This document shows, in pieces, positions 49,699 to 53,000 of a DNA stretch of 64,000 nt. Under the pieces are notes generated by a model, which saw only the letters and a program-made list of their open reading frames with translations, was not told the DNA's origin and ran no database searches. The translations under genes and the position numbers were made by a program. This stretch comes from Candidatus Kinetoplastibacterium galatii TCC219 (GTDB taxonomy: Bacteria; Pseudomonadota; Gammaproteobacteria; Burkholderiales; Burkholderiaceae_B): positions 124,001-188,000 of the forward strand of contig NC_020284.1 of assembly GCF_000340905.1 (NCBI RefSeq). The letters are read 5' to 3'. Every line of letters starts with the position of its first letter. The first letter of the stretch is position 1.

Positions 49699-50478
49699 AT
49701 GATTTTGGTAAAAGATTTTTTAATTAATGTTTCTGTTTCTATTTTTATACTAATCTTTGGTTGGTGGCTTTCTTCTATTGTAGGTCAATGGTTTTCAAAA
49801 GCTATAAAATTTTCTCCTCATATTGATGTTACTGTAGTTCCGATATTAAGTTCTTTGGCTATATGGAGCATAAGATTTTTTACAGTTATAACAGTCTTAG
49901 CAAGATTTGGGCTAGAAACAACAAGCATAATAGCCCTGCTTGGTGCAGCTGGTTTAGCTATTGGCTTAGCTTTGCAAGGAACTCTACAGAATATTGCAGC
50001 TGGTATTATGTTATTATTGCTTAGACCAGTAAGATCTGGTGAGTTTATTTGCCTAAAATCAGGAGAAGAAGGTACTGTTAGTGAGATTGGTCTTTTTTTA
50101 ACTAGAATAACTCAAAATGATGGAACTAGCTTAACATTACCAAATAGCATTTTATGGAATTCTACTATTGTGAATTTTAGCAGGAATTCTATTAGACGTG
50201 TGGATATACCAGTTTCAATTAGTTACAAATCTGATATAAATCTAGCCCTCGATACTATTACAGATGTTGTTAAATCTAATTCTTTAGTTCTTGTCGATCC
50301 TACACCATTAGTTAAGGTAGTAGAATATAAAGAATTTAGTATAGTAATTAATGTCAGGGTTTGGTCTGATTCTTCTAATTATTGGGATTTAAGATGGGGG
50401 CTGTATCATCAAATATGGGTTTCTCTTGGTGCTGCTGGAATAGAGGCTCCTATCGTAATAAATAGCAACTTAAATTAG
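49699..50478 (+). CDS. MscS-family small-conductance mechanosensitive channel
   Basis: A 259-residue inner-membrane channel that releases solutes on hypo-osmotic shock. TM1 is at about residues 8-28, TM2 about 45-68, and the pore-lining TM3 about 75-105 with the Gly/Ala-rich AAGLAIGLALQGTLQNIAAG. The cytoplasmic beta domain follows with GTVSEIGLFLTRI and LPNSILWNSTIVNFS. The start ATG has a TTGGAGA ribosome site, with a 10-bp palindrome TAGAATTCTA just before it (49675-49684). It is divergent from mutS across 260 bases, which hold a TATAAT at 49660-49665 but no clear -35. It probably helps the symbiont survive osmotic change; that is inference. Confidence 0.92.
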   Translation: MILVKDFLINVSVSIFILIFGWWLSSIVGQWFSKAIKFSPHIDVTVVPILSSLAIWSIRFFTVITVLARFGLETTSIIALLGAAGLAIGLALQGTLQNIAAGIMLLLLRPVRSGEFICLKSGEEGTVSEIGLFLTRITQNDGTSLTLPNSILWNSTIVNFSRNSIRRVDIPVSISYKSDINLALDTITDVVKSNSLVLVDPTPLVKVVEYKEFSIVINVRVWSDSSNYWDLRWGLYHQIWVSLGAAGIEAPIVINSNLN

Positions 50479-50595
50479 GTGCTATGTTATTTAGTTAATT
50501 AAAAATTCTCAGCTTTTTTATAGGGATTTTTTAGCGATAGGTTTGATTTTAGTTTTTTGAATTATTTTTCAATAAGTTTTGTATGGTATTTTGTT

Positions 50596-51372
50596 ATGCA
50601 TCCGATGTTAAATATTGCTGTTAAAGCAGTTAGGAGATCTAGTTCAGTTTTAAGTCGTTTTAGTTTAGATTTAGAAAGAGTTAATGTCTCTCGACAATTA
50701 ATAAATGAATATGCTGATGAAGCTTATCGATTAGCAGAAGAAGCTGCTAAGTTGGTAATTTTAACGGCATATCCTGATCATGTTGTTTCTCCTGGTAATC
50801 TTAGAGATTTGAAAAACCATAAGGGGTTTTTATGGGTTATTTGTCCTATAGATGGACTAATTAATTTTGCTTATGGATTTCCATTTTATGCAATTTCGAT
50901 AGTATTGATCCAAAATGGTAATATTTTGCAATCAGTAGTTTATGATCCTGTTCGTAACGATCTATTTACTTCACGTAGAGGATCTGGAACTTTTCTGAAT
51001 GATCGTCGTATTAGAGTGTCTGGGCAAATTAGTTTAAGTAATTCTTTGATCGGAGATGGTTCTGACAATATAGATAATGACAATCATTTAGATAAGAGTC
51101 ATGGTGTATATTGCTTATCTACAAGGCGTATAGGATCAGTTGCTCTTGGTTTAGCTTATGTAGCTTGTGGGCGTCTGGATGGTTTTTATGGATACGGTGA
51201 TCTTAATAGAAAATATCTAATTGCTGGAAGCCTTCTGGTTTCTGAGGCTGGTGGCTTGATAACAGATTTTAATGGTGATCAAGATTGGTTAGAATCTAGA
51301 CAAATAATTGCAGCTACTCCTAAAATATTTTCTCTTTTGAAGAATAATATCAATAAGTCTTTAGCTAAATAG
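50596..51372 (+). CDS. suhB: SuhB-like inositol monophosphatase family protein, catalytic site lost
   Basis: The start MHPMLNIAVKAVRR and the blocks VVYDPVRNDLFTSRRGSGTFLNDRRIR, GLAYVACGRLDGF and AGSLLVSEAGGLITDF clearly place it with SuhB. The metal site is destroyed. The GEESG/TEESG element is replaced by SPGNLRD, the WVIDPLDGTTNF motif reads WVICPIDGLINF (first Asp to Cys, Thr lost), and the PWDFAAG Asp is replaced (RKYLIAG). Only one of the four metal ligands remains, so phosphatase activity is unlikely. E. coli SuhB also joins the NusA-containing antitermination complex on rRNA operons, a role reported not to need catalysis, which could explain retention of an open frame. The ATG at 50596 is chosen for its family match. 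Length is 258 residues. Confidence 0.88.
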   Translation: MHPMLNIAVKAVRRSSSVLSRFSLDLERVNVSRQLINEYADEAYRLAEEAAKLVILTAYPDHVVSPGNLRDLKNHKGFLWVICPIDGLINFAYGFPFYAISIVLIQNGNILQSVVYDPVRNDLFTSRRGSGTFLNDRRIRVSGQISLSNSLIGDGSDNIDNDNHLDKSHGVYCLSTRRIGSVALGLAYVACGRLDGFYGYGDLNRKYLIAGSLLVSEAGGLITDFNGDQDWLESRQIIAATPKIFSLLKNNINKSLAK

Positions 51373-51425
51373 AATGAGAATTAATAATTGAAATATTATG
51401 AATAGTTGTTTTTTAATTTGTGGAG

Positions 51426-53000
51426 ATGTATTTGTTAGACTGGCTACAGGACCCGACTGCATTAGTTGGATTATTTACTCTGGTCATTCTTGAGGTTGTT
51501 TTAGGGATAGATAATTTAGTTTTTATCGCAATTCTTGTAGATAAGCTACCTCCTGGACAAAGAGACAATGCTAGAATTATCGGTTTAGGTTTTGCTTTAA
51601 TAGTCCGCATGATATTTTTATCATGCATGTCTTGGTTATTAACATTAACCAACCCCTTATTTCACTTTAGTATATTTTCCGGTCGTGATTTGATTATGTT
51701 GACAGGGGGTATATTACTTTTATTTAAAAGCACCGTGGAACTGCACGATCGTATAAATGGTAATGTATCTGAAGTGATTGGAGCTCGAGTATATGCTAGC
51801 TTTTGGGTTATTGTTGCTCAAATAGTTGTTCTTGATGCTGTTTTTTCACTAGATTCTGTTATAACAGCTATTAGCATGGTTGATCATCTAGCTATTATGA
51901 TGATAGCTGCAATTATTGCTACAGGTATTATGATTTTGGCATCTAAGCCATTAACTATTTTTGTAAATACTCATCCCAGTGTTGTAGTCTTGTGCCTAGG
52001 TTTTTTGCTTATAATAGGATTTTCATTAATATCTGAGAGTTTTGGTTATATAGTACCGAAAGGTTATTTATATGCAGCAATTGGTTTTTCTATATCTATA
52101 GAAGCCTTAAATAATATTTATCGTAGAAATCTGTCAAAAATAGATACTCGGCGGCCAATGAGGGAGAGGACTGCTGAAGCTGTTTTACGCATGTTAGGAA
52201 AAAGAACTGTTGTTAATGATGATTATGAATCAATAAATACTCCTTCATTGAATACTAATGATTTCGGTATAGAAGAACGAAATATGGTAAGTGGTGTCTT
52301 AACCCTAGCAGAGAGATCCATACTTTCAATCATGACTCCTAGAACTGATATTTCTTGGGTTAATATTAATGAAACCTCAGAAACTCTTCGAGAGCAGTTG
52401 ATGAACGAACCACATAGCTTTTTCCCAGTTTGCAAAGGATCTCTTGAAGAAGTCGTCGGAATAGGTCGAGCTAAAGAAATGATTATAAATTTGGCAACTG
52501 ATGATGGACGATTAAAGTTAGATAAATTGCGAGAACCAGTCATAATACATGAATCTACCAGCATCTTAAAGTTAATGGAAATGTTTAAAAGATCCAGAGT
52601 GCAGATAGCTCTTGTTGCTGATGAATTTGGAGAGATAGAGGGGTTAGTAACTCCAATAGATGTCCTTGAAGCGATAGCTGGTGAATTTCCTGACGAGGAT
52701 GAATTACCTACAATTATTGAAGATGGTACGGATAGATGGATTATAGATGGTTCTGCTGATTTACATCATGTGGAGCAAGTTCTAGAAATTGATTGGTTGA
52801 TAAATGACTCAAATGATTATTCGACAATGGCTGGTTATTTATTGGCTAATTTTGGGGCGTTGCCAAATATAGGTGATACTTGGGAATACATTGCATATAA
52901 TGGCACATTTAAATTTGAAGTTCTAAAGTGTGACAATAGGAGAATATCTCTTGTTAGAGTTACTAAGTTATTTCTCGATAATTTATCTTGCATAGAATAA
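51426..53000 (+). CDS. TerC-family membrane protein with CBS and CorC/HlyC domains
   Basis: A YoaE/YegH-type protein of about 524 residues. The N-terminal TerC domain has about seven membrane segments and the conserved [16 protein letters not shown] and [13 protein letters not shown] blocks. A CBS pair (about 290-420, [11 protein letters not shown] and later [17 protein letters not shown]) and a C-terminal CorC/HlyC transporter-associated domain follow. Function is not established; metal export is suspected for the family. GTGGAG at 51420-51425 is the likely ribosome site. It abuts the ATG at 51426 and lies six bases before a TTG at 51432, so the TTG could be the real start. Confidence 0.88.

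Follow-up and report, generated by a model that had tools for sequence, protein, structure and literature searches.

A suhB orthologue on the plus strand at positions 50596 to 51372 of a 64,000-nucleotide stretch of the Candidatus Kinetoplastibacterium galatii TCC219 genome (contig NC_020284.1, positions 124,001 to 188,000; this whole stretch is termed the window) has lost most of its metal site, and the gene is under purifying selection. We consider it probable that, after this loss, SuhB was kept as a factor of ribosomal RNA (rRNA) antitermination (Nus factor), and that the chemistry of the inositol monophosphatase (IMPase) family stayed with a paralogue, Imp2. The organism is a symbiont that lives within trypanosomatids of insects, and its genome consists of one contig of 822,140 bases. 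Those close relatives of the window SuhB that carry a name are Kinetoplastibacterium proteins. Residues were numbered by reference to E. coli SuhB from MG1655 (locus L131). The gene and the positions discussed below, which were placed by alignment (with codons read for all but the last), are the following.

50596..51372, plus strand: suhB orthologue with metal site lost; 258 codons, ATG to TAG, no internal stop.
50791..50796, plus strand: P66-G67, at E. coli E67-E68 (E67 being a metal ligand, with E68 next to it).
50842..50844, plus strand: C83, at E. coli D84 (bridging metal ligand).
50851..50853, plus strand: D86, at E. coli D87, the sole acidic ligand retained.
51211..51216, plus strand: K206-Y207, at E. 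coli W211-D212 (D212 being a metal ligand).
51340..51342, plus strand: K249, at E. coli L254 (a contact with NusA AR2 according to excerpts of PMC6614801).

The initial annotation of this DNA, made from the sequence alone, had described a 258-residue frame that was kept, and the uninterrupted open reading frame bears this out. An in-frame TTG at 50557 would extend the gene to 271 codons; this start was set aside, since the SuhB N-termini of relatives align to the ATG at 50596. A profile search with Pfam PF00459 gave 135.5 bits (cut-off, 27), and the predicted structure of the protein (predicted local distance difference test score [pLDDT], 90.8) had IMPase/SuhB chains as its best structural neighbours. 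By sequence and fold, the protein belongs to the PF00459 IMPase family, and its predicted fold is SuhB-like. The top-scoring model was NCBIfam NF008027 (PRK10757, inositol-1-monophosphatase), at 159.8 bits against a curated cut-off of 332; Imp2 scored 186.1 bits and likewise fell below it, and this model fails to separate Imp2 from the window SuhB here. The NCBIfam model TIGR02067 (HisN-type histidinol-phosphate phosphatase; cut-off, 275.15) gave 90.4 bits for the window protein and 116.1 for Imp2, both below the cut-off.

We take E67, D84, D87, and D212 of E. coli SuhB to be the acidic metal ligands, following the IMPase literature. Alignment of the window protein revealed P in place of E67, C in place of D84, and Y in place of D212, with D87 kept; three of the four ligands are gone, as had been claimed at the outset, and the three motif readings given with that claim were exact on re-reading. 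Further site positions also have changed (E68 to G, T89 to L, and W211 lost). Judging from the lost ligands, the window SuhB is predicted to have lost phosphatase activity.

The distribution of the loss was followed in eight Kinetoplastibacterium genomes: the window genome (G000) and G001 to G007, of which G006 is K. sorsogonicusi. SuhB and Imp2 both are present in seven of these, and G006 has one IMPase, SuhB. The losses of E67, E68, and D84 are common to the seven genomes with both genes, which rules out sequencing error as their cause. Taken in the order G000, G007, G001 (these three being the window's clade), G002, G003, G004, and G005, the residue at the E67 position is P, D, D, K, K, K, and N, that at the E68 position is G, G, G, N, N, N, and K, and that at the D212 position is Y, Y, H, D, D, D, and E; in all seven, D84 is replaced by C and D87 is retained. 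An eighth site-lost sequence of the Kinetoplastibacterium type comes from a metagenome (protein P0007, contig of 1,310 bases). All eight sequences lack E67, E68, D84, T89, and D44 and retain D87, G88, and N91. The cysteine at the D84 place (C83 in the window protein) also is invariant in these eight sequences, and nearby pocket positions vary.

The residues that persist raise the prospect of altered catalysis, in which the remaining ligands (D87 throughout and D212 in G002 to G004) would coordinate metal in another way and part of the phosphatase activity would survive. G88 and N91, kept alongside D87 in every site-lost sequence, would agree with this; the five residues gone from every one of them, and the additional loss of D212 from the window protein, argue against it, and we regard it as improbable.

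The SuhB of K. sorsogonicusi, the only IMPase found in that genome, has a complete site (GEEFG, IDPIDGTTNF, and PWDLAAG). According to excerpts of PMC8229890, this species branched off first among these symbionts, and the simplest history thus would be an ancestor with both genes intact, followed by reciprocal losses.

In order to assess selection on suhB, the ratio of nonsynonymous to synonymous substitution rates (dN/dS) was estimated with a pairwise codon model (our own GY94 code), and pocket codons were split from the remainder by the NG86 method. dS was 0.46 to 1.87 within clades and saturated between them, and between-clade values were not used. SuhB gave dN/dS values of 0.072, 0.118, and 0.080 in G000/G007/G001 and 0.066, 0.083, and 0.087 in G002 to G004, and a dN/dS of 1 was rejected for these pairs (twice the log-likelihood difference, 75.6 to 147.6). 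The corresponding ranges were 0.064 to 0.149 for Imp2, 0.037 to 0.059 for hisD, 0.028 to 0.067 for nusA, and 0.044 to 0.065 for mscS, the last in G000/G007/G001 only (this control included no G003 or G004 sequence, and those of G002 and G005 were cut short by locus ends). SuhB is under purifying selection, about as constrained as Imp2 and less so than hisD and nusA. A dN/dS near 1 across symbiont genomes, named initially as the mark of a decaying pseudogene, was not found within clades. Such a pseudogene, unneeded and with its frame open only for lack of time, would fit the faster change of the gene (it is approximately 48% identical to the Achromobacter-type SuhB of G145, versus 62% for K. 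sorsogonicusi SuhB). With values similar to those of intact Imp2, a frame open in seven of seven genomes, and a confidently predicted fold, it is a very improbable explanation, disfavoured by dN/dS and open frames together.

The conserved columns of the family were then compared between the pocket and the rest of the protein, using the 83 columns in which 56 intact SuhBs of the family show conservation of 95% or more. The eight site-lost sequences all keep 47 of these columns, 24 are kept in some, and 12 are kept in none; the fraction kept in all was 4/15 for pocket columns versus 43/68 elsewhere (p 0.019). Counts for pocket and other columns were 15/15 and 63/68 in G006, and 4/15 and 58/68 for P0061 and 9/15 and 59/68 for G434, two cases from outside the genus described below. 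In the window's clade, NG86 dN/dS was approximately 0.56, 0.78, and 0.35 for pocket codons versus 0.15, 0.22, and 0.19 elsewhere; in G002 to G004 it was approximately 0.04, 0.04, and 0.23 versus 0.18, 0.12, and 0.17, with small pocket counts in both comparisons. Relaxed evolution of the pocket holds in the window's clade and not in G002 to G004.

The partners of SuhB in antitermination persist in the genus. NusA was above the cut-off in all eight genomes, with AR1 and AR2 regions that align to E. coli in each (AR2 identity, 33 to 45%), and NusB and Rho each were found in eight of eight. An exact boxA (GCTCTTTAAC) precedes 16S by 200 to 211 bases (mirrored in minus-strand loci) in 12 of the 19 16S loci of seven genomes: it is present at every 16S locus of G000 (three), G001, G005, and G007 and at none of the seven loci of G002 to G004. 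In one G003 locus (L113), GATCTTTAACA was noted by eye, and the 11-mer GCTCTTTAACA occurs once in L115 versus 0.01 expected. A 16S family search of the complete G006 genome gave no match, whereas the seven other genomes of the genus match; hence, no G006 leader entered the boxA count. Partners and signal for antitermination are present, which is a statement of presence and not of use by the window SuhB.

Excerpts of PMC6614801 report that the KL251/254AA exchange in E. coli SuhB lowers affinity for NusA AR2 more than a thousandfold, that recruitment of SuhB requires the RNA signal but is independent of AR2, and that E. coli SuhB fulfils its cellular role without need of phosphatase activity. 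K251 occurs in none of the 56 rows of intact relatives; the L254 position is L in 46 of these 56 rows and in G006, and it is I or V in G002 to G005. The altered L254 position in the window's clade, the cysteine that is invariant in eight of eight site-lost sequences amid variable pocket positions, and the unrelaxed pocket codons of G002 to G004 would favour recruitment of the site-lost SuhB to a role other than antitermination, such as that of a regulatory partner of another protein in which this cysteine is involved. Against such a role stand the retained fold, with 47 of the 83 family-conserved columns, and the persistence of the antitermination partners; no partner or new motif turned up, and no search aimed at them was made. 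We consider a new role unlikely.

A PF00459 search of the window genome revealed two IMPases, the window gene and Imp2.

C1:120324-121205 (L001:1450-2331), outside the window, minus strand: Imp2; 293 codons, with TEESG, IDPLDGSTNF, and AWDVAAG.

In a tree of 52 rows, 18 Imp2 rows and 34 SuhB rows were split at 100/100. Imp2 also is present in free-living members of the family, which makes it an old paralogue rather than a recent copy. A second intact SuhB in the window genome, a possibility raised in the initial annotation, was rejected: strictly there is none, the second intact IMPase being Imp2. In K. sorsogonicusi, the 19 kb examined at the Imp2 place, which contain the neighbouring thioesterase gene (59.5% identity), gave Imp2 matches no stronger than E 0.55. 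The window gene groups with the SuhB side of the tree, and this grouping, together with its MscS neighbourhood, identifies it as a suhB orthologue. Its neighbours, both named from a reading of the sequence and not by family search, are as follows.

49699..50478, plus strand: MscS-type channel gene, 5' of suhB.
51420..53000, plus strand: TerC/CorC-type membrane protein gene, 3' of suhB.

An MscS gene lies 5' of suhB in Achromobacter too, and a TerC-like frame lies 3' of suhB in G434 too.

hisD is present in all eight genomes of the genus, so a histidinol-phosphate phosphatase presumably is needed. Excerpts of PMC3846528 name two IMPase-like genes of K. blastocrithidii and suppose that at least one fills the missing histidinol-phosphate phosphatase step; excerpts of PMC5632650 likewise argue that IMPase-like proteins fill this step in these symbionts. 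The excerpts of these two papers make no mention of a lost metal site. By elimination, Imp2 would be the candidate for the step in the seven genomes that have both genes, and in K. sorsogonicusi it would be SuhB; the site-lost SuhB is unlikely to serve as histidinol-phosphate phosphatase in the seven. The histidine logic is not clean, since hisD occurs without an Imp2 match at E 1e-30 in G434, G413, G444, G451, G010, and G303. Neither hisD nor Imp2 was found in G420 and G449, where the SuhB site is complete; these genomes count against a tidy rule and fit Imp2 as the histidine enzyme, with the SuhB site kept for another reason.

A wider SuhB alignment had 202 rows (from E. coli, 80 genome loci, and 121 proteins), a non-random set made up of best matches to site-lost queries or of close relatives. 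Lost ligands were seen in eight rows, seven of the Kinetoplastibacterium type (two of them the window's own protein) and P0061. The SuhB of P0061, from an 86,187-base contig, carries E67D, E68G, D84N, and D212S. For the family, 61 genomes were searched. Three belong to the genus; among the remaining 58, G406 gave no SuhB match, and the SuhBs of the 57 others were read. E67, E68, D84, D87, and D212 all are kept in 56 of these 57, the exception being G434, with D212N. G406 (3.5 Mb; completeness, 100) has an Imp2 match and no SuhB at E 1e-30 or 1e-40. From a set of 30 loci, 21 were read. Of these, 19 lie outside the family, many of them picked because their score was low or their genome small, and the site is kept in all but G266, which is truncated before it. 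At the order level, 386 of 399 genomes had a SuhB-search match at E 1e-40, a count of matches in which the ligand state was read in few.

G434 is an 866,396-base Alcaligenaceae-type genome, and its protein record P0122 is labelled 'MAG: Bordetella sp.' Its SuhB (L205:1024-1845, plus strand), the sole IMPase found there, has D44N, G70N, P85S, G88N, and D212N and keeps E67, E68, D84, and D87; it may represent a site midway through loss or, alternatively, an exception to the elimination argument. In SuhB trees with and without the pocket columns, G434 and P0061 join the seven site-lost genomes and K. sorsogonicusi falls outside, with long branches involved. This conflicts with the published genome phylogeny, as given in excerpts of PMC8229890. 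A single clade of all eight SuhBs of the genus was not rejected (p-AU, 0.196, in the approximately unbiased test), and in a hisD tree G434 joins the genus (96/100) without a fixed place inside it.

We propose that the Mg site of SuhB (E67, E68, and D84, the last replaced by Cys) was lost once K. sorsogonicusi had split off, in the common ancestor of the remaining species. The cause would be that Imp2 performed the IMPase-type chemistry, most likely as histidinol-phosphate phosphatase, and that SuhB had no duty there beyond a structural one in rRNA antitermination. K. sorsogonicusi would have taken the reciprocal route, losing Imp2 and keeping a SuhB with a complete site, presumably for both jobs. 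The Nus role in the window organism is putative, as is that of Imp2 as the histidine enzyme. The original suggestion that the enzyme was discarded and the scaffold kept holds insofar as the site is lost, the frame is constrained, the predicted fold is SuhB-like, and partners and boxA are present; it needs amendment in that the cell probably did not discard the chemistry but left it to Imp2.

Several points weigh against this proposal. NG86 analysis revealed no relaxation of the pocket in G002 to G004, and both the list of pocket columns, which is our own, and the ligand roles draw partly on general knowledge of the IMPase family. The L254 position is K in the window's clade (K249 in the window protein), a change that leans against an E. 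coli-like AR2 contact there; NusA binding and antitermination by the window SuhB are predictions. G434 has hisD, no detected Imp2, and a SuhB with D212N, so that retention of the site is not obligatory for a lone IMPase. Other members of the family keep both sites, which indicates that Imp2 alone does not free SuhB.

In the open-licence literature on SuhB or IMPase in Kinetoplastibacterium, endosymbionts, and pseudoenzymes, to which the search was confined (subscription papers were not covered), we found no report of a SuhB without a metal site. A natural site-lost SuhB and its reciprocal distribution appear to be new to that literature; the dispensability of the phosphatase in E. coli already was known. 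We suggest tentatively that genome reduction resolved a bifunctional SuhB oppositely within one genus, that site loss recurs as a result of reduction (P0061 and, in part, G434, both from further reduced relatives), and that the Nus role is the core function. If so, the opposite outcomes would be a scaffold-only SuhB with Imp2 as the enzyme in most species and one SuhB with both functions in K. sorsogonicusi. A long-maintained natural SuhB lacking its site would provide independent evidence that the role in transcription is by itself worth keeping the protein for, and the window SuhB could serve directly as a tool to tell the two functions apart. Activity is reported as unneeded in E. coli (excerpts of PMC6614801), yet 56 of 57 family SuhBs outside the genus keep the site. 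For seven of the eight genomes, one of the two candidates for the missing histidinol-phosphate phosphatase would drop out; in K. sorsogonicusi, SuhB is predicted to perform this step.

Among known systems, E. coli SuhB, which is both a Nus factor and an inositol monophosphatase (PDB 2qfl, 6ib7, 6ib8, and 6tqn), is 35% identical to the window protein, which differs from it in the loss of E67, E68, D84, T89, W211, and D212 and in having S for K251 and K for L254. The K. sorsogonicusi SuhB (P0011) is an orthologue of the window SuhB but has a complete site and is the sole IMPase of its genome. The P0061 SuhB, like the window protein, lacks the site; it differs in its own set of residues and is approximately 45% identical. 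Imp2 shares the Pfam family of the window SuhB but forms a separate, old clade with a complete metal site and is a candidate histidinol-phosphate phosphatase.
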